Source: Mesorhizobium sp. AR10
GTDB taxonomy: Bacteria > Pseudomonadota > Alphaproteobacteria > Rhizobiales > Rhizobiaceae
Assembly (NCBI RefSeq): GCF_024746795.1
Contig: NZ_CP080524.1
Span: forward strand, 1,674,001 to 1,738,000
Length of the DNA: 64,000 nt
Reading direction: 5' to 3'
In this document: piece by piece, positions 37,154 to 58,213 of the stretch
Layout of the letters: every line of letters starts with the position of its first letter
Position numbering within the stretch: position 1 is the first letter of the stretch
Program-made: the position numbers and the translations under genes
The notes under the pieces: model-generated
What the model saw: only the letters and a program-made list of their open reading frames with translations
What the model was told of the DNA's origin: nothing
Database searches by the model: none

Positions 37154-37194
37154 CTTGTCAATTCCGCCTAGGCTAATGTAAGGGGGACGGATCG

Positions 37195-37731: not shown

Positions 37732-37950
37732 ATTGCCGCGCCAGCCAGCCGAATGTGTGGCTGCAAGGCGTATCGCGACCTTCCCACACCGCGATCGTGA
37801 TCACGGCGTAACACTACCTGGAGCGTAGCTCCTTCCTTGACAATCGCAGGCGATCGATCCAGCATTATGGCAAGGGGTTCCTTCGCGACGACCCCGTGAG
37901 GCGTCAGCCCAACGATCGCGTCCAAACTCTCATTTCAGGAGGTGGACGCC

Positions 37951-40157: not shown

Positions 40158-40568
40158 CGGTCGCGCCGCTGGGCACTGCCGCGGCGCGTCCGATGTTCTC
40201 GAAAGCTGCCCACGGAGAAGACGCCAACGGAGCCGACCATTCTGGTGCCGTCGACCACCTGATCAAATGAGAAGACACGATCCTGCCCCGTTCGGACAAG
40301 CGGCGTTAGCCGAAAGGTGTAGGGCGTTGGCGCCTCAAGACCGGTGAGGTGCGTATCTGAGGACAGAACGGCCCCAAATTCAAAGTATAGAGCCGACGTT
40401 GTCGGCGTACTCGGCAGCGCGGTAGCAATTAATTCCCATCTATTGTCCTATCTGAGTAGCCGAAGCTTCATCGGGCTACGTCATTGTGCTTCGTTCCTGT
40501 GGGGTAAGACGCCTCCTATTCTCTGTCCGGAGATGCCGTCGAGATTTGCCATCGGACCGGAGTTCGTC
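40158..40568. other. non-coding gap before the exopolysaccharide cluster
   Basis: This 411-base gap separates chrA from the polysaccharide export gene. The frame of the export gene stays open back to 40344 but its upstream part has no family resemblance. I see no terminator, repeat or attachment site. Confidence 0.4.
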
Positions 40569-41804
40569 ATGCGCCTGCTACCCAGTCTTCTGGGATTGAT
40601 CCCTGCCTTGATCAGCTTTTGTGCTTCCGCACAGGAGCTTTATCGGATCGAAGCCAACGACCGGATCGAGGTCTGGACTTCGGTTGAGCCGAGCCTGCGC
40701 CGTACCGCGACGATCGGCCCGGACGGCTGGCTGTCGCTTCCGCTCGTCGGTCATCTGAAGGCGGCGGGCATGACGGCCCCTGAACTGGAACAGACGCTGC
40801 AGGAGCACCTGAAGAAATACTTCAAGGAAGGCATAGACCTCACTGTCATGCTGCAGCCCAGTGAGGAGCGTACCCAAACGGTCTATGTTACCGGCGAAGT
40901 GGCCACCCCGGGCGCCTATCCATTCCGACCGGGTATGATCGTTCTTCACGGTGTCAGCGTAGCGGGTGGACTCCAGCGCGATGCGGATACGGCTTCCAAC
41001 GAGGAGCGGATTGTGTCGATCCGGGGCGAGATCGCGCGCGACACCGCGCGCCTGGAGGCGCTTGCGGCGCAGGCCGCGCGGATCAAGGCGGAAATTGACG
41101 GCAAGGATCTCGTGGGGGAGGTGGGTAAAGAGTCCCCCTCTCTGTTGCGTGAGCGCCAGATTCTCGCGGCAAGGCGGTCCGAAGCCGCGATCCTGCGCAC
41201 GGCGCATGAGCAAGACATTCAAATTCGCCGACAGGCTATCACGGCCCAGCGCCAACAGGCGGAGACATTGAGCCGGCGCGTCGAGATCGCCGAGCACCGC
41301 TTCAACGCCGTGACAAAACTCGTCTCACGGGGCTACGCCAACGAGGCCCAGGCGCTTGAACTGGAAGGCGGGATCACGGAGCTGCGCGGCGATCAGCTCG
41401 AGCTCAATGTCGATATCCTGACAACGCAACTCGAACTGTCCGCCGAACTGTCCCGTTTCGACACCAGTCTTCAGGAGCGGAAGACCAGCCTCGAGGTCGA
41501 AGGGCGAGATGTCGAGCGCGACTGGGAGGCAGTCTCATCGCGGCTCGCTGACAACAACCGGATCCTGCGGCTCGTCGCCTCGGGTCCGTCGACCGCTGCC
41601 GAGGCAACAACACGCCCGCCAACCTTCAGCATCGTCCGGTCCGTCGACAACAGGCCAGTCGAGTTCGAGGCGACGGAACGGACAGCCGTCGAACCCGGCG
41701 ATATCATTCGCGTGGGCTACGGGGGCGCGACTGCCCCGATGGCCAGCGGGGTGTCCACATCGAGTATCGACGATGCAGGGTTGCAAAACGAGATAGTCCA
41801 GTGA
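40569..41804 (+). CDS. polysaccharide export protein, ExoF/Wza-like
   Basis: The start at 40569 gives a signal peptide (MRLLPSLLGLIPALISFCASA) and a GGAG site upstream. The 411-residue product has a Poly_export domain (about residues 20-110: YRIEANDRIEVW, TIGPDGWLSLPLVGHL), an SLBB domain (VYVTGEVATPGAYPFRPG) and then a long coiled-coil region (about 180-340), like ExoF of rhizobial succinoglycan export. It is expected in the periplasm or outer membrane, working with the chain-length protein that follows with a 4-base overlap (GTGA). Confidence 0.85.
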   Translation: MRLLPSLLGLIPALISFCASAQELYRIEANDRIEVWTSVEPSLRRTATIGPDGWLSLPLVGHLKAAGMTAPELEQTLQEHLKKYFKEGIDLTVMLQPSEERTQTVYVTGEVATPGAYPFRPGMIVLHGVSVAGGLQRDADTASNEERIVSIRGEIARDTARLEALAAQAARIKAEIDGKDLVGEVGKESPSLLRERQILAARRSEAAILRTAHEQDIQIRRQAITAQRQQAETLSRRVEIAEHRFNAVTKLVSRGYANEAQALELEGGITELRGDQLELNVDILTTQLELSAELSRFDTSLQERKTSLEVEGRDVERDWEAVSSRLADNNRILRLVASGPSTAAEATTRPPTFSIVRSVDNRPVEFEATERTAVEPGDIIRVGYGGATAPMASGVSTSSIDDAGLQNEIVQ

Positions 41805-43333
41805 GCGGCGCGCCATCGAACCCCGATCTGCATGCGACGACGCAACAGCCTATGATCGACCAGATCCTTCGAAACGCGATCTATTATATCGAGGCTTTCC
41901 TGAAACGACCGCTTTGGGTCATCGGTCCTGCTGTAGCCACCGTGGCGATCGGGGCTGGCGCGTTCCTCGCTCTGCCCCGCAGCTACCAGTCCGAGGCGCA
42001 GATTCTCATCGAGGCGCCCCAGTCGCCGACGTCCCTTGTTCCCTCGACCGTCGCAACCGAGCACCTGCAGTTTGTCGAACAGCGCGTGCTTGCGCGCGAC
42101 AAGCTCCTTGCGCTTGCGGAGAAGATCCACCTGTTTCCCGGACTGCGAAACACCATGTCGGAGACCAAGCTGGCTCAGTTGATACGCCAGAATATCTCTA
42201 TCAACACCATGGTGACCGAGCCATCGGACCGTTACTCGGGAACGGCCGCAATGCGGATCGGTTTTACTGGCGCGACAGCCGAACAGGCTTCGGCGACCGT
42301 CGCCGAACTGGTCAGCATGATCATCCAGGAAAGCCGTGGGCTGCGCATCCAGCGCGCATCCGAGATGTCGGAGTTCCTGTCCCGTGAGGTCGACAACATG
42401 GCCGGCATGATGAAAGCGCGCGCGGCCGACTGGAACGCCTTCTTTGAGCAGAACTCCGACGCCCTGCCGGCGCGGGTAGAAGGCGTGGAAAACGAAATCC
42501 AGGAAAAGGATCGCGAACTGACAAGCCTCGACCAGTCTATCGCCACGCTCGATCAGGAGCTGCGTCTTCTGGAGGCAGAGCTCCGCCTACAGCGCCCGGA
42601 AGCGGCCGTGCGCGATCGGACCCAGCTGGCGGAGCTGGAGTCGGAACTGGCCACGAAGTCATTGACCTATTCGGACGCACACCCGGAGATCCGCGCACTT
42701 TCGAAAAAGATCGAAGGCATGCGCCAAAAAATCGCAAGCGCGTCGGTACCCAGCCCGGAAGTCGTCGATCAGAATCTCACACCGGAAATGGCTCTCGTCG
42801 CGGAACGGGTCAAGATCGCGAAGGCTCGTCACGGATCCCTCGTCGCCAAGCGAGCCGAAGTGAACGAGCGGATCGCGTTGCTGCAGGCGATCATCGCCCG
42901 CGCACCCGCCGTTGGCGCGCGGCTCGAAGCGATCGAACGGGAACGCGAAACGCTGCAGCGCAATCTCGACGAGATGCGAGGCAGACTTTCGACCGCGCGC
43001 ACCGGTGAACGGCTGGAGCGCGACAATTCCACAGGCCATGTCCAGGTTCTCGAAGAACCTGAAACGCCGCGATATCCGTCGTCTCCAAGCCGCACGCGCC
43101 TGCTGCTTCTCGTGATGGGTGGCGCCCTCGCCATGGGTGCAGGTGGTCTCTATCTCGGCGACAACCTGCAGCGGACGATCCGGGGGACGTTCGACCTGAA
43201 GGCGGCGCTAGCCGGATCCACCCTCGTGGTCATTCCCAACTGGGTTCCGGCGAAGACGCCGATGTCGCGCCTGGAAACGGTGCTCAGCTATATCGCCCGC
43301 GCGATTGGGATCGACCGCAGGGCCACTACATGA
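41801..43333 (+). CDS. polysaccharide chain-length determinant, Wzz/ExoP N-terminal type
   Basis: The 510-residue inner-membrane protein starts at a GTG overlapping the export gene. It has two membrane segments, about residues 36-55 and 430-450, flanking a long periplasmic coiled-coil domain. The segment before the second helix (PETPRYPSSPSRTR) is the proline-rich motif of this family. Unlike rhizobial ExoP it lacks a fused kinase; the P-loop protein encoded next is the likely partner. It sets chain length and gates export of the polysaccharide. Confidence 0.85.
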   Translation: MSGAPSNPDLHATTQQPMIDQILRNAIYYIEAFLKRPLWVIGPAVATVAIGAGAFLALPRSYQSEAQILIEAPQSPTSLVPSTVATEHLQFVEQRVLARDKLLALAEKIHLFPGLRNTMSETKLAQLIRQNISINTMVTEPSDRYSGTAAMRIGFTGATAEQASATVAELVSMIIQESRGLRIQRASEMSEFLSREVDNMAGMMKARAADWNAFFEQNSDALPARVEGVENEIQEKDRELTSLDQSIATLDQELRLLEAELRLQRPEAAVRDRTQLAELESELATKSLTYSDAHPEIRALSKKIEGMRQKIASASVPSPEVVDQNLTPEMALVAERVKIAKARHGSLVAKRAEVNERIALLQAIIARAPAVGARLEAIERERETLQRNLDEMRGRLSTARTGERLERDNSTGHVQVLEEPETPRYPSSPSRTRLLLLVMGGALAMGAGGLYLGDNLQRTIRGTFDLKAALAGSTLVVIPNWVPAKTPMSRLETVLSYIARAIGIDRRATT

Positions 43334-43371
43334 AGTTCGGGTCGCTTGCATAAGGATGTAGCAGGAAGTCC

Positions 43372-44148: not shown

Positions 44149-44215
44149 GGTGCCTTGGCTCCAGCTTCCGTCTGCCCTTCTCGGCACTCGCTTGAACTGA
44201 ATTTCGGAGACTGGG

Positions 44216-45052: not shown

Positions 45053-45122
45053 CGCTGCGTCGGTCCGTTGTACAGGAGCATCACATTTGTGACAGAAGTC
45101 TTCAAACTCGCCACCCGTTCGA

Positions 45123-45557
45123 GTGGACTGGGTCTCCGGGGCGTGCATGATCGTAAGATCACAAGTGCTGCGTGACGTCGGCGTCTTCGATGAAGACTAT
45201 TTCCTCTACTACGAAGTCGATCTCTGCATGCGGGCGGCGAAGGCCGGTTGGTCCAGCCACCATTTCCCCCAAAGCCGCGTCGTCCATCTGGTCGGGAGAT
45301 CGACGGGGGTCACATCACGCAATGTCGCCCTACCACGCCGCCCGGCCTACTGGTTCCAGTCGCGCAGTCGCTATTTCCTGAAGCACTACGGAAAGAACTA
45401 TCGGGTGCTGACAGACATCGCGTGGTTAGTCGGCCACATCATATCCCGCACCAAGCACCTAGTGCGGGGTCGCGTGAGCGGCGCGCCGCCGCACGTCTTC
45501 GGAGACTTCATCCGACACAGCATCAGCGCGCACAGGTTGCCCGGCGTGCGGGGATGA
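45123..45557 (+). pseudogene. 3' fragment of a family 2 glycosyltransferase
   Basis: The frame opens at a GTG without a ribosome binding site and reads VDWVSGACMIVRSQVL, then GVFDEDYFLYYEVDLCMRA. This matches the middle and C-terminal part of rhamnosyl-type family 2 glycosyltransferases, which normally have an N-terminal nucleotide-binding domain of about 150 more residues. In frame upstream there are only ten codons before a TGA (45090-45092). The gene is thus truncated at its 5' end, probably by a deletion. Its last 99 bases overlap the convergent family 4 gene. Confidence 0.75.
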
Positions 45558-46778
45558 AGGCTCCCGAGCGATGCTTCCTACTCTGCCGCGGATGATGTGC
45601 CGCTCAATGAGGCTGGCGGACAGCGCCACATCATGGCGGGCGATAACCCTCTGCCGGGCCTGCTCACCCATACATCGCAACGTCGCCTCATCGGCGGTGG
45701 CCGCAGCATGCATCGCGTCGCACAGCGCCGCCGGGTCGCCGGCCGGGATCAGCCAGCCGGCGTCGCTGCGCACAAGTTCTGGAATGCCCGCGACATAGGT
45801 CGAGATGACGGGCCGACGCAGCGCCATGCTCTCCATCAGGACGACGGGCAGGCCCTCGGCAAAGCTCGGCAGCACCATCGCCCGCGACATGTGGATCTGT
45901 TGGCGTATTTCCGCCTGACCCATCCAGCCCGTGAGCCTGACGATATCACCAAGATCGAGGTCGCGGATTGCCGCCTCGATCGCGCCACGCAGAGGGCCGT
46001 CACCGGCGAGGGTCAAGCGAAATGGCACGCCGCGATCGCGCAGCATGGCGGCAGCCTTCAGCAGCACGAAATGGCCTTTCTGCTCCGAGAGGCGAGCCAC
46101 GCAGAGAAAGGCAGGCGCACTCAAGATCGGGACGCCCGGTTCATCGAGATAGGCCCGGTCCAGCCCGCAATGGACGACATGGATCTTGGCCCAGTCGTCG
46201 AACGCGGCCCACCGCATAAGTTGGCTGCGCCCGAAACTGCTGACGGCGGCCACGAAGCAGGCCTTCGCTATCTTCGCCCCAAGACTGTGCTCCTGCGCGC
46301 GGTCGAACTCCTCGGGACCGTGAACCGTGAAGCTGAATGGAATGCGGGTCAGCTCACTGACGAGCGCCCCCACCGTCGCCGGATTGGTGCCGAAATGCAC
46401 ATGCAGATGTTCGGCCCCTGCCTGTCGGCACCACGCCGCGATCACGAGCGCTTCGATATAGTACGCCAAGTGACGTAGAACACCGCGCTTCGAGGCGGAA
46501 GAAAAGCGCAGAGCCGAGAACGCGGCGTCGATCGCGCGGCGCGGGCTGGCGAATGCACTCTTTGTTGCGAGCGCAATCAAAGAGATTGAGTCCAGGGAAA
46601 GGACATGGAGGGTCTTCGCCAACTCCTCTACGTCTGCTGGGTCATTGAGGATTTGGGGTGCGCGCCGGACCGCATAGCGCAGAACCGAATGGCCATTCGC
46701 CTCCAGCGCAGCGATCTCACGCCTTATGAAAGTGTGGCTCGTCGCCGGATACTGGTTCGTTAGGTACGCGATCCGCAT
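45459..46778 (-). CDS. family 4 glycosyltransferase
   Basis: The start at 46778 (MRIAYLTNQYPATSHTFIRRE) is chosen because the family's N-terminal strand begins there; the frame runs on to 46865. The 439-residue protein has the GT-B fold with the C-terminal donor-binding motif PSFAEGLPVVLMESMALRRPV and a preceding GDGPLRGAIE. It would add a sugar to the growing polysaccharide at the cytoplasmic face. The last 35 or so residues (after ERHIIRGRV) look like antisense of the neighbouring fragment and are unusual for the family, suggesting the native stop was lost. Confidence 0.85.
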   Translation of the reverse strand: MRIAYLTNQYPATSHTFIRREIAALEANGHSVLRYAVRRAPQILNDPADVEELAKTLHVLSLDSISLIALATKSAFASPRRAIDAAFSALRFSSASKRGVLRHLAYYIEALVIAAWCRQAGAEHLHVHFGTNPATVGALVSELTRIPFSFTVHGPEEFDRAQEHSLGAKIAKACFVAAVSSFGRSQLMRWAAFDDWAKIHVVHCGLDRAYLDEPGVPILSAPAFLCVARLSEQKGHFVLLKAAAMLRDRGVPFRLTLAGDGPLRGAIEAAIRDLDLGDIVRLTGWMGQAEIRQQIHMSRAMVLPSFAEGLPVVLMESMALRRPVISTYVAGIPELVRSDAGWLIPAGDPAALCDAMHAAATADEATLRCMGEQARQRVIARHDVALSASLIERHIIRGRVGSIAREPSSPHAGQPVRADAVSDEVSEDVRRRAAHATPH

Positions 46779-47097
46779 ATGTTTCCCGTTCTGCCACGTC
46801 GGCGCGTCCGACAGCCACGGCCAGACCATTGAATTATCAGACTGAATCATGTGCCGCCGATTCATCCAAAGGGATTACCTGACGGCAATTGTCCGGTGCG
46901 GTCATGTTGGGCGATGACGGACCTAGTTTCCGGCATTGGGAGTCCGCGTGGATGCCGCCGGTTGCCGCATGAGTGATCGATGAAGAAGACGCGACGTTCT
47001 GAAACTGCTCCCTGCTCTCGGGCTGCCGATGGCTTTCTCGTTGCAGTCGAGAGCCGGTTACGCGGCAAGTCCAGCGAATCGACCCAATGTGGATGGC
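46779..47097. other. non-coding gap
   Basis: Open frames in this 319-base gap show no recognisable protein and no ribosome binding site. I see no terminator or repeat. It may be remnant DNA of the rearranged polysaccharide region. Confidence 0.4.
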
Positions 47098-47346
47098 CTA
47101 CTTGTCCAGGGGATCCGTGCCGGACGGTCGGGAACGGCACCAGGCCAGCAACGCGCCGGCCAGATAACCAATGTTGATGGCAATGACCGCGAACAATGAT
47201 GCCGACACCGGCGAAAGGCCGAACTCGGGACCGAACACGAAGAGGGCTGCAACAAACACGCCGGCGAACGCGACGACCACCAAGGAGCGGAAGAACAGCC
47301 CGAGGATCAGCGCGGCGACAAACGCGAGGATCGTCAAGATGTGCAT
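47098..47346 (-). CDS. small polytopic membrane protein, 82 aa
   Basis: The ATG at 47346 starts an 82-residue hydrophobic protein with three likely membrane segments (about residues 3-18, 21-39 and 50-70), ending in a polar tail. I do not recognise a family. Small membrane proteins of this kind occur in rhizobial exopolysaccharide clusters, but a role is not readable. It is divergent from the family 2 glycosyltransferase gene at 47467. Confidence 0.5.
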   Translation of the reverse strand: MHILTILAFVAALILGLFFRSLVVVAFAGVFVAALFVFGPEFGLSPVSASLFAVIAINIGYLAGALLAWCRSRPSGTDPLDK

Positions 47347-47466
47347 TGTACCTCTACATCGGTCGAAGTGGACGCCTGCCGTATACATGCTTGCGGCAGG
47401 CCACAACAGCGTCTGGTGCGCAAGGCCGGGGGAAAGGGTGCCAATCTTGGCGAGGTGGCTTTTCGC

Positions 47467-48504
47467 ATGAACGCAATCGCTGATTCCGATAGATTGCAGT
47501 CCTGCCGGCCAAGCCCGGAGAACCATCCGTCGCAACCGGTTTTCGCGGTGGTGGTGATCGGCCGTAACGAAGGGCAGCGTTTGGTCGATTGCCTGAAGTC
47601 GCTCGGTCCCCATGCATGGAATACGGTGTATGTTGACTCAGGGTCGCGAGACGGCAGCCCCGCCATGGCCGCATGTTTGAACGCGCATGTCGTCAGACTC
47701 GACATGCAAGAGCCCTTTACCGCGGGTCGCGCCCGGAACGCGGGCTGGCGTGCCGCCTTGAAGTGCTGGCCGGGACTGCAGTTCATTCAGTTCATAGACG
47801 GTGATTGTCTGCTCGATAGCGCTTGGATCAATAGAGCAAACCGCTTTTTGGAGTCGCGCAACGACGTTGCCGGGGTCTTCGGACGCCGTCGCGAGCGCCG
47901 GATTGAACGGTCAGTCTACAACGCTTTGTGCGACCGCGAGTGGGACGGAGCGCCGGGACCCGTCCTCGAGTGCGGAGGCGACGTCTTCATGCGTGTTTCC
48001 GCGCTGCGTGATGCTGGCGGTTATGCAAGTTCATTGATTGCTGGCGAGGAGCCAGAGCTATGCGTGCGGCTTCGCGCCCGTGGCTGGATCATTTGGCGGT
48101 TGGAGGCGGAGATGACGCTGCACGACGCCGACATGACCCGCATCCATCAGTGGTGGCGTCGCAACATGCGCGCAGGATATGCCTTCGCCGAAGTCTCGAC
48201 GCTCCACTGGGCATCGCCTTTTGGCATCTGGCGCCGGAACCTGTGGAGATCACTCGGTTGGGGAGGGGTTCTCCCGTTGGCAATGCTAGCCGGATTCACA
48301 CTGCACCCGGCAGCGCTTGGAATCCTTGTGCTCTACCCGATCCAGGTCATCCGGATCGCAGCACGGGAGGGTGGCGTGAGCAGAGAGAGCTGGCGCAACG
48401 CTTTCTTCGACGTGCTCGGCAAGTTTGCCGAGTTCAAGGGTGCAGCGACATTCTTTTCCAACCGCGCCCTGGGCCGTCACCAGCGGATCATTGAATACAA
48501 ATAG
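47467..48504 (+). CDS. family 2 glycosyltransferase
   Basis: The start at 47467 (MNAIADSDRLQ) is the first that fits the family; the frame is open from 47341. The 345-residue enzyme has the GT-A nucleotide-binding strand VFAVVVIGRNEGQRLVDCL, the DSGSRDGS loop and the D-x-D motif in FIDGDCLLD, and later GEEPELCVRLRARGW, the usual catalytic acid region. A hydrophobic C-terminal stretch (about residues 265-300) may hold it at the membrane. It would add one sugar of the repeat unit. Confidence 0.85.
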   Translation: MNAIADSDRLQSCRPSPENHPSQPVFAVVVIGRNEGQRLVDCLKSLGPHAWNTVYVDSGSRDGSPAMAACLNAHVVRLDMQEPFTAGRARNAGWRAALKCWPGLQFIQFIDGDCLLDSAWINRANRFLESRNDVAGVFGRRRERRIERSVYNALCDREWDGAPGPVLECGGDVFMRVSALRDAGGYASSLIAGEEPELCVRLRARGWIIWRLEAEMTLHDADMTRIHQWWRRNMRAGYAFAEVSTLHWASPFGIWRRNLWRSLGWGGVLPLAMLAGFTLHPAALGILVLYPIQVIRIAAREGGVSRESWRNAFFDVLGKFAEFKGAATFFSNRALGRHQRIIEYK

Positions 48505-48530
48505 ACAGTGATCGCGGACGCCTGGTCTTC

Positions 48531-48548
48531 AAGCCGCCGAAGCGGCTT
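48531..48548. other. hairpin after the glycosyltransferase gene
   Basis: AAGCCGC and GCGGCTT form a 7-bp stem with a CGAA loop 26 bases after the stop at 48504. TTCAAGCCGCC is also repeated directly here. Without a T run it is at best a weak terminator. Confidence 0.35.
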
Positions 48549-48677
48549 CAAGCCGCCTTGTCGATCCGCTTGTGCGGGGAAAGGCCTCGTCCTGAACGCT
48601 GCATCTTCTCGTTGTTTCAGGCACGATTTCGACTATGCTGAAAACGTCCTGACCGCCGGGATGCGCCCTTCGTCCAC

Positions 48678-50105
48678 TCAGGCTCCGCGCAGCGTGAAGA
48701 TCGTCCGCACCACGATTTTGATATCAAGCCAGAACGACCAGTTGTCCATGTACCAGAGGTCGTGAAACACTCTCTGTTCCATCGCTTCGACAGTTGGCGT
48801 CTCGCCCCTGTATCCCCTGGTCTGAGCCCACCCAGTGATACCGGGCTTGACATGGCGCCGTGCGGCATACTCCTCGATGAGCCGGTCGTAGACGTCATCG
48901 TGGACGACAGCATGCGGGCGGGGTCCAACAACCGACATCTCCCCGCGCAGGACATTCCAGAACTGCGGCAATTCGTCGATGCTCAAGGCCCGGATAAATG
49001 CGCCGACACGAGTGACGCGCAGGTCCAAGCGTGTAGCCTGTCGTATCTCGTCACCGTCTTCCATCACGGTCATACTGCGGAACTTCACGATTCGGAACAG
49101 CCGGTTCGCGTGGCCCCGCCGGCGTTGCAGGAAGAATACGGGACCGGCACTGTCGATCTTGATTGCCGCCGCGACGATCAGGAACACGGGGGACAGAAGT
49201 ACGAGCGCGACCAGCGAGAAGGTGATGTCGAAGATGCGCTTCGCTGCGCGTTCCGCAAGGTAGAGCGGTGGGCTCTGCACCTGGAACGCGATGACGGAGC
49301 CGATGCTCTCGGAATGGCAGGAGACGACCGAGCCGGTGAAGCTATCGAACACGACCTTAACGGGAAGCGGCAGTCGCCGCAGCTCGAGAAGCATCTCCTC
49401 CAGGTGATGCTCGGGAGCGTCCCGCCAGACGATCACAATTTCGTCGATGTCGCTGGAGCCATTGATCGTCGAGAAGCGATCGCGCAGTTGGCTTATCGGT
49501 TCGTCAGCCGTTGGAAACCGTGTGACTTGCGCGATCCGCAATCCACCGTTCTGCGTGAACCTCTGCAGTCCGTCGAGCGACATGCTTTCTGGACAGATGA
49601 AGAAGGCGTTCTTCGGACGTAGCCATGCGGCCGAGACGGCAGTTGAAAGGCATCGTCGCCAGACGATCCGTATGCCGATGAGCGATACGATCGACAGCGT
49701 GGCGAGATGCAGGATCGCTCCGCGTGAGAAGGTATCGCCAAGCTTGAGAAAGAAGATGACCGCCAAGAGGAAGGCAAGCACGGTCGGAACGAGAAGGCAG
49801 ATCAGCAATACCTGGTGGCTGACGGAGGAAAACTCGGCATAGGCGTACGCGTGCAGGCAACTCATGGCGAGCACGAAGATTGCGGCAGTCAGCAAGCCGA
49901 TCCCAACATTCATGGTTGGATCCGAGAACACGCCAAAAGCCGCATAGTGGTAGGTGAAGACGCCGACGACCGAGCAAGCGAGTACGATCACGAAATCGAT
50001 CAGGGCGATGGTATAGGCCATGGAGCCATGGCTGAATCCACGACGCCGTTTCGCGTTCCTAGAAGAAATTAAGTACCGGCGGGCCAATTCGACAGTAGTT
50101 GACAT
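48678..50105 (-). CDS. exopolysaccharide polyprenyl glycosylphosphotransferase
   Basis: The 475-residue membrane enzyme has four to five N-terminal membrane segments (about residues 28-150), a CoA-binding-like middle domain and a C-terminal bacterial sugar transferase domain (about 285-475) with KRIFDITFSLVALVLLSPVF, FLQRRRGHANRLFRIVKFRSM, LSIDELPQFWNVLRGEMS and PGITGWAQTRGYRGET. It transfers a sugar phosphate from a nucleotide sugar to undecaprenyl phosphate, the first step of repeat-unit assembly. WbaP/ExoY-type enzymes use galactose or glucose; the sugar cannot be chosen here. Confidence 0.9.
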   Translation of the reverse strand: MSTTVELARRYLISSRNAKRRRGFSHGSMAYTIALIDFVIVLACSVVGVFTYHYAAFGVFSDPTMNVGIGLLTAAIFVLAMSCLHAYAYAEFSSVSHQVLLICLLVPTVLAFLLAVIFFLKLGDTFSRGAILHLATLSIVSLIGIRIVWRRCLSTAVSAAWLRPKNAFFICPESMSLDGLQRFTQNGGLRIAQVTRFPTADEPISQLRDRFSTINGSSDIDEIVIVWRDAPEHHLEEMLLELRRLPLPVKVVFDSFTGSVVSCHSESIGSVIAFQVQSPPLYLAERAAKRIFDITFSLVALVLLSPVFLIVAAAIKIDSAGPVFFLQRRRGHANRLFRIVKFRSMTVMEDGDEIRQATRLDLRVTRVGAFIRALSIDELPQFWNVLRGEMSVVGPRPHAVVHDDVYDRLIEEYAARRHVKPGITGWAQTRGYRGETPTVEAMEQRVFHDLWYMDNWSFWLDIKIVVRTIFTLRGA

Positions 50106-50201
50106 TTTTAGGCAGTCCCAATTTCAAGAATCCCACCACACATAACTTTCGACAACACCAATCGCCCCATCGCGTCGCAACCAGATGCATTGATCCACAA
50201 T

Positions 50202-51392
50202 CTAGACACGCGTTCGATCCGTCCTGACCCAAACTTGTTCCATCCGACCGGATACCAGGCGGTAATAAATTCGGGCCTTTCCCACCATGTAGCCAGGGAT
50301 TTTGAGAACGGCCTCGACAGGCACGACATCGCGGCCATGTGCAGCCCATGCGATGGCGGTGGACGTGGCGAGGAGAAACGCGCTTGCGATCCCGATCGTG
50401 AGAGGCCCTCGGCCGAATTCGAACAGCGCAACGAGCAGTCCAGCCGCGATCGCGAAGGCCTGCGCGTATGCGAGCAGGGTCAGCGGCGGCACCAGGATGT
50501 CGAGCGTCATGACAAGGCAATCGCGGTTGCCAAGGGTCCGACGGGTGAAGAGGCGAGGCAGGCAGGCCATCACCATCGAAAGGTGACCACTCTCCCAGCG
50601 ACTTCGTTGCGAGAACGTACCGGAGACAGTCTCGGGGAAGAAACTGCGCACTCCGGCAGTCTCGCAGCAGACAGGCGCGTGTCCAGCCGCGGCGAGATCG
50701 AGGCCGAGCTTCATATCCTCGACGAGGTGGTGATGGGCAAACTGCACCTTCCCGACCAACGCCCAAGGCAGCGCCATGCCAGTTCCGGTAAGCAGGCATG
50801 GCAGCCCGAACCGGCTCAGGCCGCGCGGACGGACGAGATTCTTCACGCGAAATGCGAACTCGGCAATGCCAAGATTGCCTTTTTGTCCGGCCGGCGTGGA
50901 CATCAGGTAGCAGGACTGGACCGGTCGTCCGGTCGTAGAGACGAGGCGAGCAAGTTCGTCGAGAGTGCCGTCGACGAGCGTGCAATCCGCGTCGACGAAG
51001 ACAACCACGGGGGGGGGCGAGAGCGCCAGATACACCAGTCCGAAGTCGACTGCATAGCCTTTGCCGCGATTCACTGAATCGGACCGCTCCAAGACCTCTG
51101 CGCCCGCCGCACGCGCAATCGCTGCCGTATTGTCCGTGCAATTGTCGGCGACGACAAGCAGCCTATCGCCTTCGCGCATCTGGTTGAGGATGCTCTTCAG
51201 CGTCGCGTCGATGCCGGACATCTCATCATGCGCTGGAACCAGGATGGCGACGAGCGGCCGCAACGTATCGGCTTTCCGCAGCTTGGGCCGCACCGGCAAG
51301 CTGCCTGCGATACATTCCACCGCGTAGATGACGGTTGGAATCGCCAGCAGTGCAGAAAGGCTGAAGGCCAGAAGCCACAGTACGAGTTGCAT
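50202..51392 (-). CDS. family 2 glycosyltransferase, membrane-bound (cellulose-synthase-like)
   Basis: The start at 51392 (MQLVLWLLAFSLSAL) has a GAGGTGAC site upstream. The 396-residue protein has an N-terminal membrane helix, the GT-A domain with LVAILVPAHDEMSGID, the D-x-D in VVFVDADCTLVDG, EDMKLGLDLAAAG as catalytic base region and QRSRWESGHL (Q-x-x-R-W), then two or three C-terminal membrane segments. This is the layout of processive or ExoU-like transferases. A run of nine C on its coding strand (51009-51017) encodes SPPPV and is a potential slippage site. Confidence 0.85.
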   Translation of the reverse strand: MQLVLWLLAFSLSALLAIPTVIYAVECIAGSLPVRPKLRKADTLRPLVAILVPAHDEMSGIDATLKSILNQMREGDRLLVVADNCTDNTAAIARAAGAEVLERSDSVNRGKGYAVDFGLVYLALSPPPVVVFVDADCTLVDGTLDELARLVSTTGRPVQSCYLMSTPAGQKGNLGIAEFAFRVKNLVRPRGLSRFGLPCLLTGTGMALPWALVGKVQFAHHHLVEDMKLGLDLAAAGHAPVCCETAGVRSFFPETVSGTFSQRSRWESGHLSMVMACLPRLFTRRTLGNRDCLVMTLDILVPPLTLLAYAQAFAIAAGLLVALFEFGRGPLTIGIASAFLLATSTAIAWAAHGRDVVPVEAVLKIPGYMVGKARIYYRLVSGRMEQVWVRTDRTRV

Positions 51393-51677
51393 AGACAATG
51401 TCACCTCGGAACCGATTGTTCGACAAGCATCTGACAAGCACGCGCACATTGCGGAAAGCTCTCAATTCTTTCTCGTCCTCCGGAATTTGGCGCAGTCCCC
51501 ATAAGCGCGACCGCCGTTCGGCGGGGGAGTTTCGATGTGCCCTACCCCTTTTTGATGCCCGCGACTTGCTTGTTGCCCGCAAGACAAAGATGGTTAACTC
51601 ACGATTAAGTGAAAGTGAAACCAATCGCGCGGGACGGCATTCTTCGCTCGTTCAGAAAGTCTTATTGAAGAAGATCG

Positions 51678-52487
51678 GTGACGAGTATGGATATTGATCA
51701 TCATCCGGCCGGACTGGGGCAGCGTCAATATTTTCTCAACGCGCCTTTCGACCAGATCGAGCGAGTCGCCGTCGTAGATCTGGTTGCAAGGGCCGATCCG
51801 AACAGTCGGTTCCGCTACATCGTCACGCCGAACGCCGACCACGTGGTAAGGCTAAATCGCGAACCATATTTGCGGCCTTACTACGAGGACGCCTGGTTGG
51901 CCCTCTGCGACAGCAAGCCCATCTCCCTCTTCGCGCACGCCCGGTCGCGGGAGATGACGCATGTGACGGGGTCGGACCTTACGGTCAGTCTGTTCAGGAC
52001 CGTCATCCAGAAGGCTGACAGGATCTCGCTCATCGTGGGAAACAGGGAGATCGGAGAGGCCGTTCGCGCCGGATATCCGGGTGTGGACTTCAGGATCCAT
52101 GTGCCACCCCTGGGCCTCTTGAAGAATTCACAGGCGCAGCGGGACTGCGTCGAGTTCGCCTTACGCGAAAAAGCAAGCTTCATCTTCATCGCCGTTGGCA
52201 GCCCGCAATCCGAGAAGATCGCCCACATGCTGTCCAGAGAGTCTTCGGCGACGGGCATCGGACTCTGCGTCGGGGCCTCCTTGGAGTTCCTCGTCGGCGC
52301 CAAGAAGCGGGCGCCAATGTGGATGCAAAAGCTCAGCCTCGAATGGCTTTATCGTATGATCACAGACCCGAAGCGGCTGTGGCGTCGCTACGTCTTCGGC
52401 GCCTTGCCGTTGACTATGCTCTTCTGGCGAGAAGTCATGGGACGCCACTCCAGCGCAAAGCTTTTCCGAGCGTCACCGCACCGCTAA
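51678..52487 (+). CDS. WecB/TagA/CpsF family glycosyltransferase
   Basis: The 269-residue protein has the family core: FRYIVTPNADHVVRLNREP, ALCDSKPISLFAHAR, TGSDLTVSLFRTV, VPPLGLLKN, FIFIAVGSPQSEKIA and VGASLEFLVGAKKRAPMWMQKLSLEWLYRMITDPKRLWRRY are all in order. Members add N-acetylmannosaminuronate or other sugars to a lipid-linked acceptor. It starts at a GTG or at an ATG 9 bases later. It is divergent from the cellulose-synthase-like transferase and its 3' end overlaps the convergent phosphopantetheinyl transferase by 15 bases. Confidence 0.88.
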   Translation: MTSMDIDHHPAGLGQRQYFLNAPFDQIERVAVVDLVARADPNSRFRYIVTPNADHVVRLNREPYLRPYYEDAWLALCDSKPISLFAHARSREMTHVTGSDLTVSLFRTVIQKADRISLIVGNREIGEAVRAGYPGVDFRIHVPPLGLLKNSQAQRDCVEFALREKASFIFIAVGSPQSEKIAHMLSRESSATGIGLCVGASLEFLVGAKKRAPMWMQKLSLEWLYRMITDPKRLWRRYVFGALPLTMLFWREVMGRHSSAKLFRASPHR

Positions 52488-53198
52488 CGCTGCAACAATG
52501 TGACCCGCTGAGATCCAGATTCGACCGACCAGTCTGTCCCTGACAGCAAAGGGGGCGACCTCCTCCAGAAAATATGCCGAAAAGCGATGTTGTGGCAGGT
52601 CGAGTTCTACACGGAGCGCCGCGAACTCCAATATCTGCCGGCTGAGCGAATATTGGCATTTGTAGGACGCCTCTTTCGCGCAGAATATCGCCTTGGCGAG
52701 CAGGCCTCGCTCGGAAGGCGGACGGGTCGCCAGCCAGGCACGCTCCTCTTCGACACAGATCTCCGGATAGAGCTCCTCGTCGAGCGGTAGCAATTCTTCG
52801 ATGTCCAGGCCGATGGCACGGATGCCGCTGGAGCGCAAGGCAACCGATGCGCCGGCGATGCTCCCCGAATGGCTGATCGACCCGACGATGCCCTCCGGCC
52901 AGACGGGGCTTCGATCGGTGGCGGTACCGATGGGCTCGAGAGGCAGTCCGAGCGCCTTCATGGCCTCGGCAGCGCAGGCTCGACCGGCAGCGAACTCCCG
53001 CCGCCGGCTTTCAACGGCCGTCGCCGGCAAGCACGCTGCCTCGGCGGGATGGACAGAGCCAGGCTCGACCGAGGCGATCGCACAGGAGCGAAATCGGACT
53101 GCTGGATCAAGAAGCCCGGCGCTAGCCGAAAGCGTGTCGCTGTCGTTGGGCGAACGCACCGTCCGCGACGATTCTCGCTGCAGGTGTCGATCCATCAA
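52473..53198 (-). CDS. 4'-phosphopantetheinyl transferase, Sfp/EntD type
   Basis: The 241-residue enzyme carries the EntD-like motifs: GRACAAEAMKALG, SISHSGSIAGA, the magnesium-binding GLDIEELLPL and FCAKEASYKCQYS. It transfers the phosphopantetheine arm of coenzyme A to the serine of carrier proteins, here those of the adjacent NRPS (serine in GGHSLLAV) and PKS (serine in GGHSLIAV). Its start overlaps the NRPS stop by 4 bases (ATGA), so it is translationally coupled and dedicated to this cluster. Confidence 0.9.
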   Translation of the reverse strand: MMDRHLQRESSRTVRSPNDSDTLSASAGLLDPAVRFRSCAIASVEPGSVHPAEAACLPATAVESRRREFAAGRACAAEAMKALGLPLEPIGTATDRSPVWPEGIVGSISHSGSIAGASVALRSSGIRAIGLDIEELLPLDEELYPEICVEEERAWLATRPPSERGLLAKAIFCAKEASYKCQYSLSRQILEFAALRVELDLPQHRFSAYFLEEVAPFAVRDRLVGRIWISAGHIVAALAVR

Positions 53199-56100
53199 GC
53201 CGAAATCGATGTCCGGGCGAAGGCGGATCGCCGGGTCTCAAGCGCTGCCCGTCGAGCTGCCGCTCGCTCGGCCACCTTGTCTAGCTGGCGGCCCGTGTCG
53301 GCGCGCCCAGCGATGTGGTTGGCGAGACCGGCGACCGTGGGGAACCGAAACAGGTCGGTGATCGTCAAGGCGGGCGCCGCACCGGCCTTCAACTCGCGAT
53401 GCATCTGAACCGCGAGAAGAGAATGGCCGCCAAGGGCAAAGAAATTATCGTGTCGACCAACGCGAGGTAGCCCGAGAGTCCGCTGGAATGCATCAGCGAT
53501 CACCGACTCGAACTCGCCATGGATTGCTCTGTCGTCATCGATATTCGTTTCTATCAAGACGGCCTTGGCGTCCGGCTTCGGCAGCTTGGCCCGGTCGACC
53601 TTGGCGTTGGGCGTTAGCGGAAACGCGTCGAGCAAAACGTAGTGCGAGGGAATCATGTATTCGGGCAGTTCGGTCGCGAGATAGTTGCGCAGCGCGTCGA
53701 TCGGTACGGAACTGGTCGCCCGGAGGTAGGCGACGACGCTCTTGTCGCCCGGCCGGTCCTCGCGCACGGTAACTACCGCATCGCACACCCCCGGAAATGC
53801 CGCGATTCTCGCCTCGATCTCGCCGAGTTCGATCCTGTTGCCGCGGATCTTCACCTGATTGTCGGTACGGCCGATGAACTCGAAACTGTCGTCCTTTGCA
53901 AGCCGGACGAGGTCGCCGGTGCGGTAAATGTGTCCGTCCGCAAACGGGTTGGGAAGAAACCGTTCGCGAGTCAGTTCGTCGCGATTGAGGTAGCCGCGCG
54001 TAACGCCGTCGCCGCCGATGTAAAGCTCGCCCGGCGTACCGGGCGGCACCGGCTGGCTGAACTTGTCGAGCACGTAGAATTGTGTATTCGCGATCGGTAT
54101 GCCGAGCGGCACAACGTCGCCACTAGTCGTAGCCCTAACAGTGGATGACCATATCGTCGTCTCGGTGGGACCGTACATGTTCTCGACTGTCGCCGACGTT
54201 GCCTGACGAAGCTCAGATACTAGCGACCTTTTGAGTGGTTCTCCGCCGATGAAGAGATGACGCACCTGACGGAGGGCCGAATGGTCCTCGGGATCACCCA
54301 GGAACATGCTCGCCATCGACGGTGTGCACTGGAGATGGGTAACCCCCTCGCGGTGGATGTCGGTGGCCAGGCTATGATGAATGGAATCGGCGACACCCAC
54401 TGTGCGCGAACTCGATACCACTTGAGCAAGCGGTGTGAGCGCGTCCAGGACGGTCTGCGATGGCAGGCCGAAATCGATGAGACAGGCGATCTCGTCAACT
54501 CCAATAGCATCGAGTTGCTCGACGCGGGCGACCGCATCCTCGACTGTTCCGAACAGGCCGCTGTCTTCGAAGTAGCGCTCAAAGGCGAACTCCAGGATCG
54601 CGTCCATCTCATCGGAAGACAATGTCTGCAGGTCGATCTCCATCGGATTGGCGATCCCGGACGGTTTCTTGAATGCGGGGAAAGCCCAGGCGTACTGTTT
54701 GATGAGAGCCGCCGCGCTGCGCAGATATTCCTTCATGGGACCTCGCGCGAGACCGCGGACCTGCTCGCGGTCGCTGCCGACCAGCGTGTGCAGCATGACC
54801 GTGACCTTGTAGTCCGCCGGATTTCGGCCCGCCTCCTCCAGTGCTTTGCGGTAGATCCTGATCTTCTCCGCCAGTTCGTCGATCGACTGTCCGAGCAGAT
54901 GGGTGAGAACATGGGCTCCCAGTCGGGCGGCGTCGCGATAGGTGTCCGGATTGCCGGCGGTGGTCACCCAGACCGGCAGCTCCTTGCTCATCGGACGTGG
55001 CTGAGTCACAACGTCCACTTTGCCGGCGCCGTACTCGAAGGTCACCGTCTCGCCGCGCCAGAGCTTTCGGACCGTTTCGATGTCGCGCAGCAGCGCTGCC
55101 TTGTTGTTCGGTGGAGCATTCTCGGGGCGGAGCACAAAATCTTCTGGCATCCATCCGGAGGCGAAAGCGATGCCTACGCGCCCGTTGCTGAGGTTGTCCA
55201 CAACTGCCCATTCCTCAGCGACGCGAGCGGGATGATGCAGCGGTAGCACGCAGCTTCCGGCGCGGATTGCAAGATTTCTGGTAACGGCCGCAACGGCGGC
55301 ACCAGTCACGGCAGGGTTTGGATATGGTCCGCCGAAGGCATGGAAATGCCGCTCGGGAGTCCAGATTGCCTGGAACCCGTTGCTGTCCGCGAAACGCGCG
55401 CCGTCGAGCAGGGTCCGATATTTTTCAGGTCCGACGCCGTCGTCGTTGCCCCAATAGAACAGGGAGAAATCCATCGGGGTGGAGAGCTTCGCTTTCGCCA
55501 ACTTTGCATGGTCGAGCTCACTGGAATGGACTACGACCTTGAAGCCGCGCGAAAGCGTCCAGAAGATCTCGAGCACCGAGATGTCGAAGGACAAGCTCGT
55601 CACGGCCAGCCAGGCGTCCTGCCGATCCTGCGAACGCGGGATTAGGTCGTCCATCCCAGCAAAGAAGTTGACGACGTTTCGGTGCTCGACCATCACCCCC
55701 TTGGGGCGCCCAGTCGAGCCGGAAGTGTAGATCACATAGGCGAGGTTCTGCGAGACGGTATGATTGCGTGTCTCGGCCGTAGCATTTGTTTCTCTGGCGA
55801 GGTCCTCGATGCAGACGAAGCGTGCTGGGCCGCCGGCTAGATTGCCATCGAGGGCGTGGCTGGTCACAACCAGTTCCGTTGCGCTATCCTCCACCATGAG
55901 CTTTAGCCGATTTGAGGGGAACGCCGGATCGAGCGGAAGATACGCCCCGCCCGACTTGAGGATCGCATAGGCTCCAACCACGAGGTCGATCCCGCGGGGC
56001 AGATGGAGTCCGATGATGACGTCCGGACCGGCGCCGCGTGCGACGAGGGCGTTCGCGATGCGATCCGAACGGTTCTCGAGTTCGCGATACGTGATCCCTG

Positions 56101-57820
56101 ACCCGCGAAAACTTACCGCGATTGCATCGGGTGTAAGTGCAGACTGACGCTTGACAAGGTCATGTATGCAGATCGTGCTATCGTAGGTGCGTTCGGTTCT
56201 GTTGAGGTCGTAGAGGACTTTCTGCAGCTCGACGTCCGTCATGACCGGCATGGCGCTGAGCGGGGCTTGCCTGTCGAGCAATGATGCGCAGATGTCGAGG
56301 CGGCTCGCAATCTCGCGCGCTCTGTCCCCTGATAGTCTCGCTGGATCATAGACAAGGCGATTTTCGCCGTCAGCAATCACGAACGTCAGGGCGCATCCGC
56401 TTATCGCTCCGGCCTGTTCCGGCTTGGCTGTCAGCCGGAGGCCGACAGAAAGATGAGGCACAACGAGGTTCGGAGTGCGCTCGATGAGGTCGGCAGGATA
56501 AGTGAGCCGTCTACCCGCCTCGGCAATTGCCTCGGCCATTTCTGCTAAAAAGAGACCGGCGCCGCTATCTTGCCCAACCTCGACGCGAAGGGGAACAGTC
56601 TGGGCGAAGTATCCCCTATGGGCGTCGCAGAACGCCAGCAGATCGTCGTTCGTGAAAGCGACGTCAAAAGCGGGTTGGCCGGATATCCGGGCCAGATAGG
56701 CGAGCGCAAGCCCCGCTCGCTCTTCGGGTGTCGATCCTTCTGGAAGCCGAAGGGGGATCGAACCGTATCGTGGCTCGGCTGTCGCATCGGCGCGGCCAAT
56801 TCCATCGAGATCGATATCCTGCGCGCGAGCGATCCATTTTCGGAACACGTGCTCATGCGGGAGGACCCGCGATAGGGCAACGCCGAGTGTGGCGCGCCAG
56901 TCCTCATCGAGCAACGGGAGCAAGTCACCCGGCCTCACCGCGTCACTGATCGGCATGACGCCATTTGAAGTCAGCGCCGAGGCCTCGATGAGGACCGCCG
57001 CATCGGCGGTGGCGATCACCGCGCCCTTGTCACGTATCGCGATCACCTCGCCAGGTCGTGCCGCCACACCTTCGTCGACAATGGTCAGCGCCGACACCGT
57101 GTAGGGCCCGCTCGATGTCAGGACCTTTGGCGTCACGAGCGGATTGGCGTAGCCATGCCCGAAGCTAAGAGCGCGAACCAGTCGCGACAGCCGTTCCGCG
57201 GGTTCGCTGAAGCAGAGGGTGCCTGCCGCGGGAGGGCGGCTGTTGCGAGCGTAGTACGACCGCCGGGAAAGATCCTGCCTGCTGCGGGGCATCGTCCCAG
57301 CGGCAATGTTCTGGGTAAGCTGCGTGAAGGTGGAGATCCCTGCCTCAAAGCATTTTGCGTTCAAGGTCAGGACCGTCTCGTCCGGGGAGGTCTCGAACGC
57401 TTGGGCCGCCAATATGTCTCCTTCGTCGACGCCGGAGGTGATCTCGTGCCAGGTCACACCGTGCATCGGGCGGCCTTCCAGGAGACTCCAACTGGGCGTG
57501 TTCAGACCGGCGAGTTCGGGCAGCTCGCCGTCATGAAAGTTGACGGCGCCGCACCGAGCACGCCCCCATACACTGTCAGGAAGCATTCTCAGATAGCCGA
57601 TACTGAAAAGCCAATCGTACTCGAAAGGTACGATCCGGGATGCGAGATCGGCGCCGGAATCGATCACCACGATATCCCGCCCCACGGCCCAGTCCCTCAC
57701 GACGACCGATTCCGTAGCGATCGCGACGATGCTGCCGCCGTCGCGAAGCAGGGTTTCAGCGCATTGAACAAGAAGTGCATTCTCGCCGACAAGCAGACTG
57801 CTGAATTTTCTCATGGACAC
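53195..57820 (-). CDS. NRPS module: formyltransferase - half C - A (glycine code, luciferase-like monooxygenase insert) - PCP
   Basis: The 1541-residue protein starts with a formyltransferase domain (1-300) with its catalytic triad intact: N94 and H96 in VNFHDGELP and D132 in GVDEGDIL. Residues about 345-535 resemble only the C-terminal half of a condensation domain; no HHxxxDG is present. The adenylation domain has A1 ITYREL, A3 YTSGSTGRPKG and A4 SFDIS, is then interrupted by a flavin luciferase-like monooxygenase (about 780-1130), and resumes with A5 MYGPTE to A10 NAKVDR. Specificity positions read D-I-L-Q-F-G-M-I-W-K, close to the glycine code DILQLGLIWK. A carrier domain (serine about 1463) and a charged tail end it. 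There is no thioesterase. Upstream is a 17-bp tandem repeat; the divergent PKS starts 347 bases away. Confidence 0.9.
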   Translation of the reverse strand: MSMRKFSSLLVGENALLVQCAETLLRDGGSIVAIATESVVVRDWAVGRDIVVIDSGADLASRIVPFEYDWLFSIGYLRMLPDSVWGRARCGAVNFHDGELPELAGLNTPSWSLLEGRPMHGVTWHEITSGVDEGDILAAQAFETSPDETVLTLNAKCFEAGISTFTQLTQNIAAGTMPRSRQDLSRRSYYARNSRPPAAGTLCFSEPAERLSRLVRALSFGHGYANPLVTPKVLTSSGPYTVSALTIVDEGVAARPGEVIAIRDKGAVIATADAAVLIEASALTSNGVMPISDAVRPGDLLPLLDEDWRATLGVALSRVLPHEHVFRKWIARAQDIDLDGIGRADATAEPRYGSIPLRLPEGSTPEERAGLALAYLARISGQPAFDVAFTNDDLLAFCDAHRGYFAQTVPLRVEVGQDSGAGLFLAEMAEAIAEAGRRLTYPADLIERTPNLVVPHLSVGLRLTAKPEQAGAISGCALTFVIADGENRLVYDPARLSGDRAREIASRLDICASLLDRQAPLSAMPVMTDVELQKVLYDLNRTERTYDSTICIHDLVKRQSALTPDAIAVSFRGSGITYRELENRSDRIANALVARGAGPDVIIGLHLPRGIDLVVGAYAILKSGGAYLPLDPAFPSNRLKLMVEDSATELVVTSHALDGNLAGGPARFVCIEDLARETNATAETRNHTVSQNLAYVIYTSGSTGRPKGVMVEHRNVVNFFAGMDDLIPRSQDRQDAWLAVTSLSFDISVLEIFWTLSRGFKVVVHSSELDHAKLAKAKLSTPMDFSLFYWGNDDGVGPEKYRTLLDGARFADSNGFQAIWTPERHFHAFGGPYPNPAVTGAAVAAVTRNLAIRAGSCVLPLHHPARVAEEWAVVDNLSNGRVGIAFASGWMPEDFVLRPENAPPNNKAALLRDIETVRKLWRGETVTFEYGAGKVDVVTQPRPMSKELPVWVTTAGNPDTYRDAARLGAHVLTHLLGQSIDELAEKIRIYRKALEEAGRNPADYKVTVMLHTLVGSDREQVRGLARGPMKEYLRSAAALIKQYAWAFPAFKKPSGIANPMEIDLQTLSSDEMDAILEFAFERYFEDSGLFGTVEDAVARVEQLDAIGVDEIACLIDFGLPSQTVLDALTPLAQVVSSSRTVGVADSIHHSLATDIHREGVTHLQCTPSMASMFLGDPEDHSALRQVRHLFIGGEPLKRSLVSELRQATSATVENMYGPTETTIWSSTVRATTSGDVVPLGIPIANTQFYVLDKFSQPVPPGTPGELYIGGDGVTRGYLNRDELTRERFLPNPFADGHIYRTGDLVRLAKDDSFEFIGRTDNQVKIRGNRIELGEIEARIAAFPGVCDAVVTVREDRPGDKSVVAYLRATSSVPIDALRNYLATELPEYMIPSHYVLLDAFPLTPNAKVDRAKLPKPDAKAVLIETNIDDDRAIHGEFESVIADAFQRTLGLPRVGRHDNFFALGGHSLLAVQMHRELKAGAAPALTITDLFRFPTVAGLANHIAGRADTGRQLDKVAERAAARRAALETRRSAFARTSISA

Positions 57821-58167
57821 CGTGCTCGGAAGGTCTGGGTGCTCGGAAGGTCTGGCTCACTGTGAAGACGATACAAGACGGTAGAGCCGGAGACGGTCAA
57901 TCCGCGGGTTTTTCCAACATAAGGATGACGAGTTCGGGCAGCTTGGGCCACTCGTCTTGGGCCATACCCATTTTGGGGGGCGGGTGTTCACGCAATCTCG
58001 CCGAAAGGAGTAATTGTGATTGCAAGTCTGCGAGGGACAAATCGGGAGGTGCTGCCACTGTTGCCACTGCCTTCTCGCACGGCTGACGCGCAGTGCGGGG
58101 CACGTTTCCAGGGCAGCGTACACCCGTTCGCGCCTAACAGCACGCAAAGCAGTCCGGCGATCTCGTT
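57821..58167. other. divergent NRPS/PKS promoter region
   Basis: This 347-base gap must contain both promoters. It holds a 17-bp tandem repeat next to the NRPS start and a small open frame with a strong ribosome binding site near the PKS start. I looked for iron-responsive sites and found none convincing. Confidence 0.5.
57822..57855. repeat. 17-bp perfect tandem direct repeat
   Basis: GTGCTCGGAAGGTCTGG occurs twice without a gap (57822-57838, 57839-57855), starting 2 bases before the NRPS start codon on the minus strand. It lies in the NRPS leader and may be a recent duplication or a regulatory repeat. Confidence 0.8.
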
Positions 58168-58213
58168 ATGCTCAACAACACTGACGGAAATGGTCCCAAT
58201 GACATCGCCATAG
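58016..58213 (+). CDS. possible 65-aa leader open frame overlapping the PKS start
   Basis: A GTG start follows AAAGGAG with 5 intervening bases, the best ribosome binding site in the region. The 65-residue product has no recognisable domain and reads past the PKS start codon (58168) in another frame, overlapping it by 46 bases. Since the PKS start itself has no good binding site, translation of this frame could couple to it. It may equally be chance. Confidence 0.3.
   Translation: MIASLRGTNREVLPLLPLPSRTADAQCGARFQGSVHPFAPNSTQSSPAISLCSTTLTEMVPMTSP

Follow-up and report, generated by a model that had tools for sequence, protein, structure and literature searches.

A formyltransferase-initiated NRPS module with an embedded luciferase-like monooxygenase, paired with a PKS among exopolysaccharide genes in Mesorhizobium sp. 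AR10 and its relatives

Mesorhizobium sp. AR10 carries, within a 64,000-nucleotide stretch of contig NZ_CP080524.1 (positions 1,674,001 to 1,738,000; the whole stretch is called the window here), a nonribosomal peptide synthetase (NRPS) gene at 53195..57820 on the minus strand, which forms a conserved pair with a type I polyketide synthase (PKS) gene. The domain order of the NRPS, its conserved active residues, the partner PKS, an overlapping 4'-phosphopantetheinyl transferase (PPTase) gene and the setting among exopolysaccharide (EPS) genes were all observed. We tentatively propose, with a likelihood that we place a little short of even, that the NRPS is the starter module of a two-protein assembly line, that it loads, formylates and alpha-hydroxylates glycine and hands the product to the PKS, and that the resulting small acyl group decorates the EPS. 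The wider claim that across Rhizobiales, Rhodobacterales and Hydrogenophaga a dedicated line of this kind makes a polyketide acyl group that is primed with N-formyl-alpha-hydroxyglycine and joined to EPS is possible but, in our view, distinctly doubtful. The domain set itself is already known in the sense that it is widespread in sequence databases; the conserved pair in EPS clusters is the larger finding.

The NRPS open reading frame (ORF) has 1541 codons when read from a GTG; the database record of the protein has 1539 residues, making an ATG two codons in the likelier start (residue numbers below refer to the ORF product). Its domain order is formyltransferase (F; residues 3-302, 56915..57814), C-terminal half of a condensation (C) domain (residues 303-545, 56186..56914), first part of an adenylation (A) domain (A1-A4, 55496..56185), inserted flavin mononucleotide (FMN)-dependent luciferase-like monooxygenase (LLM; 54419..55468), second part of the A domain (A5-A10, 53582..54376) and peptidyl carrier domain (PCP; 53312..53503, motif LGGHSL), all on the minus strand. 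Pfam matched Formyl_trans_N at 59-164, Formyl_trans_C at 199-293, AMP-binding as two stretches (best 557-770), Bac_luciferase at 794-1109, AMP_C at 1334-1407 and PP-binding at 1440-1503, and in NCBIfam the monooxygenase scored 484.4 bits against TIGR04020, the MupA/Atu3671 family of FMN-dependent LLMs (cut-off, 244.45). A preliminary description of the window had reported an F domain, an A domain with an internal LLM and a carrier in this frame, and all were confirmed there. The LLM, from residue 785, does lie between A4 (FDISVLE, 745) and A5 (ENMYGPTE, 1213), as had been stated.

The same description had a C domain reduced to its C-terminal half, and this agrees with our searches. Pfam found no whole C domain in the NRPS, the half with the HHxxxDG motif is absent, and a profile of residues 300-545 from 39 family members matched later parts of solved C domains (for example, EntF 246-336 and McyB 395-467; 9 sequences at E ≤ 0.001). 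The predicted fold of residues 1-560 had a mean predicted local distance difference test score (pLDDT) of 94.3; structure matches of this model spanned mainly residues 3-302, so the assignment of the half C domain rests on the profile match and the sequence. The model of the full A-LLM region had a mean pLDDT of 85.7 with a predicted template modelling score of just 0.58, too low for a reading of how the LLM is placed relative to the A domain. No thioesterase (TE) domain was found in the NRPS by Pfam; one was found in the partner PKS.

We aligned 195 relatives, all chosen for similarity to the window NRPS (75 loci, the window protein and 119 database proteins; over residues 51-1400, 189 of the sequences differ from one another). 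The N-F-H stretch of the formyltransferase (N94-x-H96) was kept in 194 of the 195 and D132 in at least 97%, which bears out the earlier statement that the N-H-D residues are intact. The A4 stretch D-I-S/A-V-L-E was kept in every sequence, and conservation was at least 97% at each position of the A5 stretch N-M-Y-G-P-T-E-T-T-I-W. All 194 sequences without a gap at the carrier serine have it. The LLM was the best conserved segment of the NRPS (mean identity to the window protein over the 75 loci, 73.5%) and the half C domain the least conserved (30%); by this ranking the monooxygenase is under the strongest constraint. That the module is decaying, with one or more inactive domains, is very improbable: the C half is a remnant, and a neighbouring Wzx-like gene covers no more than residues 54-233 of a relative 513 residues long, but the NRPS has an intact open frame and conserved active residues, with the LLM as its most conserved part.

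The specificity residues of the A domain read D-I-L-Q-F-G-M-I-W-K. Given the conservation seen across the aligned relatives, the code is largely a property of the family. The alignment to DhbF (5u89), the nearest solved match for the code stretch, covers six code positions (278 to 331), where DhbF, a glycine-specific protein, has Q, L, G, L, I and W; the window protein differs at two of them. The preliminary placing of the code two residues from the glycine code thus held over those six positions. The numbering of the code positions and the remaining DhbF positions are taken from general background. The code was less similar to that of LgrA module 2 than to that of DhbF, both of which presumably load glycine.

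Among solved structures, the best whole-protein match of the window NRPS was LgrA, whose initiation module (F-A-PCP) likewise has an N-terminal formyltransferase ahead of the A and PCP domains; its N-x-H...D residues are also present in the window NRPS. In LgrA, however, F runs straight into an A domain that holds no LLM, whereas about 240 residues of C-domain sequence separate F from A in the window NRPS, and what follows the module in LgrA is further NRPS and not a PKS. The first A domain of LgrA presumably loads valine. Oxazolomycin and conglobatin have F-A-PCP modules that start with formylglycine and feed a PKS; their A domains are not known to hold an LLM, nor the modules to belong to EPS clusters. 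The nearest solved LLM was the Ox domain of PuwE (6ket; 367 bits for residues 785-1131, and 48% identity when matched by fold), which differs in that the title of the 6ket entry places it in a hybrid PKS/NRPS; we know of no formyltransferase or EPS link for PuwE.

The closest published parallels for the embedded monooxygenase are described in PMC10204066. In MtaG and MelG (myxothiazol and melithiazol), which we compared by this description, a flavin monooxygenase, also between a4 and a5, hydroxylates the alpha carbon of glycine; this frees the upstream chain in the form of an amide, and the thioesterase that comes next hydrolyses what is left. Those modules are terminal, whereas the window NRPS is a starter with its own formyltransferase and has a TE only in its partner PKS. 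In solanimycin synthesis, SolF has an A-embedded flavin monooxygenase tied to a retained alpha-hydroxyglycine, but according to the same source that module serves in chain extension and has its insert between a8 and a9.

A different fate for the starter would be that the hydroxylated N-formylglycyl thioester splits into formamide and a glyoxylyl thioester, which the PKS extends, the formyl group being a throw-away handle for the monooxygenase. We regard this as unlikely. The LLM does sit in the same a4-a5 place as in MtaG and MelG; in that system, however, PMC10204066 has the glyoxyl thioester hydrolysed and not extended, and it describes alpha-hydroxyglycine as kept in solanimycin B and skyllamycin. 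Formyl-tetrahydrofolate spent on formamide would also be costly. More improbable again is an oxidation of nitrogen in place of the alpha carbon, giving N-formyl-N-hydroxyglycine, a hydroxamate metal ligand. This would account for the pairing of a formyltransferase with an oxygenase, and a diverged pair at locus L145 lies beside ABC (ATP-binding cassette) transporter genes for zinc uptake; Atu3671, the namesake of TIGR04020, presumably also belongs to a siderophore cluster. On the other hand, the annotations of eight plasmid records that carry the pair name no siderophore or metal-ligand uptake gene, and the characterised relatives named in PMC10204066 act on the carbon alpha to the thioester.

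In the sequence that we favor, the split A domain would adenylate glycine and load it onto the carrier, and the F domain, like that of linear gramicidin synthetase, would add a formyl group to the glycyl amine. The resulting amide would then take the place of the upstream peptide on which myxothiazol-type monooxygenases act, and the LLM would oxygenate the glycyl alpha carbon, with the half C domain probably a structural remnant that has no condensing role. A formylated and/or alpha-hydroxylated glycyl starter, as first suggested, is still the best reading of the module, given its residues, its glycine-like code and the a4-a5 LLM; what has changed is that the module does not stand alone but is half of an NRPS-PKS pair. 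The ketosynthase of the PKS would accept the N-formyl-alpha-hydroxyglycyl unit, and the PKS would add one malonate-type unit, reduce it and dehydrate it. Water or a sugar may receive the acyl group from its TE; because of the EPS setting, a sugar or lipid-linked glycan is the likely acceptor. That the group finishes on the polysaccharide is the least certain of these proposed steps.

The PKS gene is divergent from the NRPS, begins at 58168 on the plus strand and leaves the window at 64000. Its complete ORF, taken from the genome (L086:2169-8663), encodes 2164 residues with ketosynthase (KS), acyltransferase (AT), ketoreductase (KR), dehydratase (DH), acyl carrier protein (ACP) and TE domains. 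By tblastn, relatives of the PKS were found in 73 of 80 homologue loci; the seven without one were contigs of 7.1, 7.5 and 9.9 kb and four loci of 16-25 kb. The PKS was also present in 10 of 11 loci drawn from genome samples (L153 being the one without it), two of the 11 overlap with the 80, L153 being identical to L016 and L154 to L007. Across 71 PKSs, the active residues of KS, AT, ACP and TE were conserved in every pattern displayed, each resting on 67-70 sequences that have a letter at the position, and the KR and DH motifs were present and more variable. The AT motif is IAAHS. Divergence of the NRPS and of the PKS was correlated over 64 loci (r = 0.95), as vertical descent alone would also give. 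The PPTase gene (52473..53198, minus strand, TTG start as listed) overlaps the 3' end of the NRPS ORF by 4 bases, and a relative of it was found in 70 of the 80 loci. A candidate RNA locus downstream of the NRPS, prompted by short ORFs without Pfam matches, was rejected: within 52000-64000 nothing in Rfam reached its gathering score, and the opposite strand of this region encodes the PKS.

The search for proteins with the same domain set, which the preliminary description had called for, found a conserved family that NCBI names MupA/Atu3671. Formyltransferase, AMP-binding, luciferase, AMP_C and carrier domains occurred together in 118 of the best 120 of 7969 matches, the other two lacking a formyltransferase call; one of the 120 is the window protein itself. 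The idea of a lone, undescribed domain combination was therefore rejected for sequence databases. At the level of published function it stood, within the coverage of our literature search (titles and abstract openings; most subscription papers outside coverage), which returned no description of an F-A(LLM)-PCP module or of an NRPS-PKS pair in EPS clusters. Phaeobacter inhibens has been reported to carry a PKS, Inhi_1972, and Inhi_1974 among three NRPSs (PMC4062626); identity with the window pair is not implied. RkpA, from rhizobial capsule loci, is another type I PKS-like protein tied to a surface polysaccharide; it is not known to have an NRPS starter, formyltransferase or LLM.

To assess the EPS setting, we counted EPS classes by tblastn, with self-matches excluded, in the 80 homologue loci and in 20 control stretches (14 from the window genome and 6 from two other genomes). 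At least one EPS or glycosyltransferase (GT) class was found in 79 of the 80 loci, the exception being the 7.1-kb contig, compared with 1 of the 20 controls, and at least two core EPS classes in 51 of 80 compared with 1 of 20, contrasts inflated by an EPS reference set built from the same loci and by the origin of 14 controls in one genome. A first count with a crude ORF caller was too low, as antisense ORFs were picked in GC-rich loci (L060, L082), and the tblastn count was used instead; the crude caller gave the PKS in 72, at least one core EPS class in 62 and a family NRPS ORF in 75 of the 80 loci. A family 2 glycosyltransferase gene lies between the PKS and the NRPS in 27 of the 80 loci. 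Annotated plasmid records offered a view free of the reference-set bias, since their annotation is RefSeq-style, and agreed with the tblastn count: the eight examined, each with coverage of at least 80%, all had glycosyltransferase or sugar transferase genes beside the pair. The PKS gene was named a type I PKS in seven of these, and in the eighth (Paracoccus marcusii) a gene of another name had the same place and size.

We rooted a tree of 85 NRPS proteins on L152. In it, 81 formed one clade (support, 1.0) containing the EPS-linked members, with L144, L145 and L151 outside it. The EPS-linked clade reaches Rhizobiales, Rhodobacterales and Hydrogenophaga, the sequences of the last (Betaproteobacteria) being nested within Rhodobacteraceae.

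Besides the inflation of the counts and the 12 of 80 loci in which the core-EPS count was 0, several observations weigh against a role in EPS decoration. L144, L145, L151 and L152 have the PKS and gave no match to the EPS reference set. Pfam, run on six neighbours of L145, four of L144, two of L151 and two of L152, found epimerase and DegT aminotransferase genes at L144, a Wzz gene at L151 and an epimerase gene at L152; beside the diverged pair of L145 (L145:774-7378) were the zinc-uptake ABC genes (ZnuA, ABC-3 and an ATPase), a GDT1 antiporter gene and a thiamine-diphosphate enzyme gene. Because these four outsiders keep the PKS without EPS reference matches, an EPS cluster is not needed for the pair to work, its role elsewhere perhaps involving metals, and the L145 product might bind metal. 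In Streptomyces, the gene for a related A-LLM protein (74% coverage) has amino-acid genes and no glycosyltransferase as neighbours. The gene is also patchy: at E ≤ 1e-200, a match was found in 7 of 297 genomes of the order (the window genome and that of L152, which lacks F, included) and in none of 7 other genomes of the genus, a distribution that we take as a sign of horizontal spread. Four of 11 genomes above the TIGR04020 cut-off were left out; their frames look unlike the window NRPS. The IAAHS motif of the AT is neither the malonyl nor the methylmalonyl signature. Finally, we identified no transferase dedicated to the acyl group, and the NRPS-PKS pair is without a known product.

A rival reading is a pair that makes a free small molecule (a signal, metal ligand or antibiotic) and lies near EPS genes only through shared plasmids or islands. 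We consider this quite possible, at well below an even chance. It draws on the relatives outside the EPS clade that keep the pair without clear EPS genes, including L145 beside its zinc-uptake genes, on the patchy spread, and on the copies found on plasmids (15 plasmid records carry at least 80% of the NRPS protein). Against it stand the EPS or GT genes flanking 79 of 80 homologues, the glycosyltransferase between PKS and NRPS in 27 of the 80 loci, and the persistence of the EPS link through an 81-sequence clade over Rhizobiales, Rhodobacterales and Hydrogenophaga. Since the outsiders keep the PKS and match no EPS references, the NRPS-PKS pair seems to have come first, with the link to EPS confined to a single clade. 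L152 offers a possible ancestor-like form: beside a related PKS, it encodes a C-A(LLM)-methyltransferase-PCP protein (L152:7542-13121) with a full C domain and no formyltransferase. This suggests that an F domain may have replaced the N-terminal half of the C domain and so turned an extension module into a starter.

If decoration of EPS by the pair is correct, NRPS/PKS chemistry would help to finish the outer polysaccharide in many soil and marine bacteria, with assembly-line chemistry serving the decoration of the bacterial sugar coat. Alpha-hydroxyglycine residues are called very unusual in PMC10204066, and an unusual acyl group could alter how the cells adhere, bind metals or are recognised by a host. 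Such a role would also account for a common orphan gene pair to which annotation pipelines give no label beyond its monooxygenase.

In the window, the genes at 40344-52487 are, judged from their sequences, an EPS cluster: an initiating sugar transferase, glycosyltransferases and an export gene occur together there, all over curated cut-offs. From the NRPS side, the cluster comprises a WecG/TagA/CpsF glycosyltransferase gene (51678..52487, plus strand; TIGR00696, 85.4 bits, cut-off 69), a family 2 glycosyltransferase gene (50202..51449, minus; Pfam), an EPS polyprenyl glycosylphosphotransferase gene (48678..50105, minus; TIGR03025, 386.5 bits, cut-off 295.6; PF02397), a second family 2 glycosyltransferase gene (47341..48504, plus; Pfam) and an EpsE-like family 4 glycosyltransferase gene (45459..46865, minus; Pfam and NCBIfam). 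Further on, all on the plus strand, are an XrtA-type ATPase-like gene (44216-45052; below the NCBIfam cut-off, Pfam AAA_22), a tyrosine-autokinase-like gene (43372-44148; below the NCBIfam cut-off, no Pfam match), a Wzz-like chain-length-determinant gene (41801..43333; TIGR03007, 141 bits, below the cut-off of 279, no Wzz match in Pfam) and a Wza-like polysaccharide export gene (40344..41804; Poly_export PF02563, 56 bits, cut-off 28).

No full-length Wzx flippase gene was found near the NRPS-PKS pair in a search confined to the locus. The Wzx-like gene that follows the PKS (L086:8764-9435, window-equivalent 64763-65434) shows 52% identity over its partial match, looks truncated and is followed by a VanZ-like frame. 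Adjacent GMC oxidoreductase and short-chain dehydrogenase (SDR) genes lie near the pair at L086:11754-14122, L156:25750-28121 and L157:2541-4855, and one GMC-type cluster occurs in 13 loci; the two enzymes may share this sugar or acyl group as their substrate. In Ruegeria sp. SCSIO 43209 (L161:18311-22225), a run of UbiA prenyltransferase, GtrA, flavin adenine dinucleotide (FAD) oxidoreductase and SDR genes adjoins the pair, which we take to resemble a polyprenyl-phosphate pentose pathway. In the window, rhodanese-type ChrE-like and chromate-transporter genes (37942-40157) adjoin the EPS cluster, and at 32683-37731 resistance-nodulation-division (RND) efflux permease and adaptor genes lie next to a TetR-type regulator gene.

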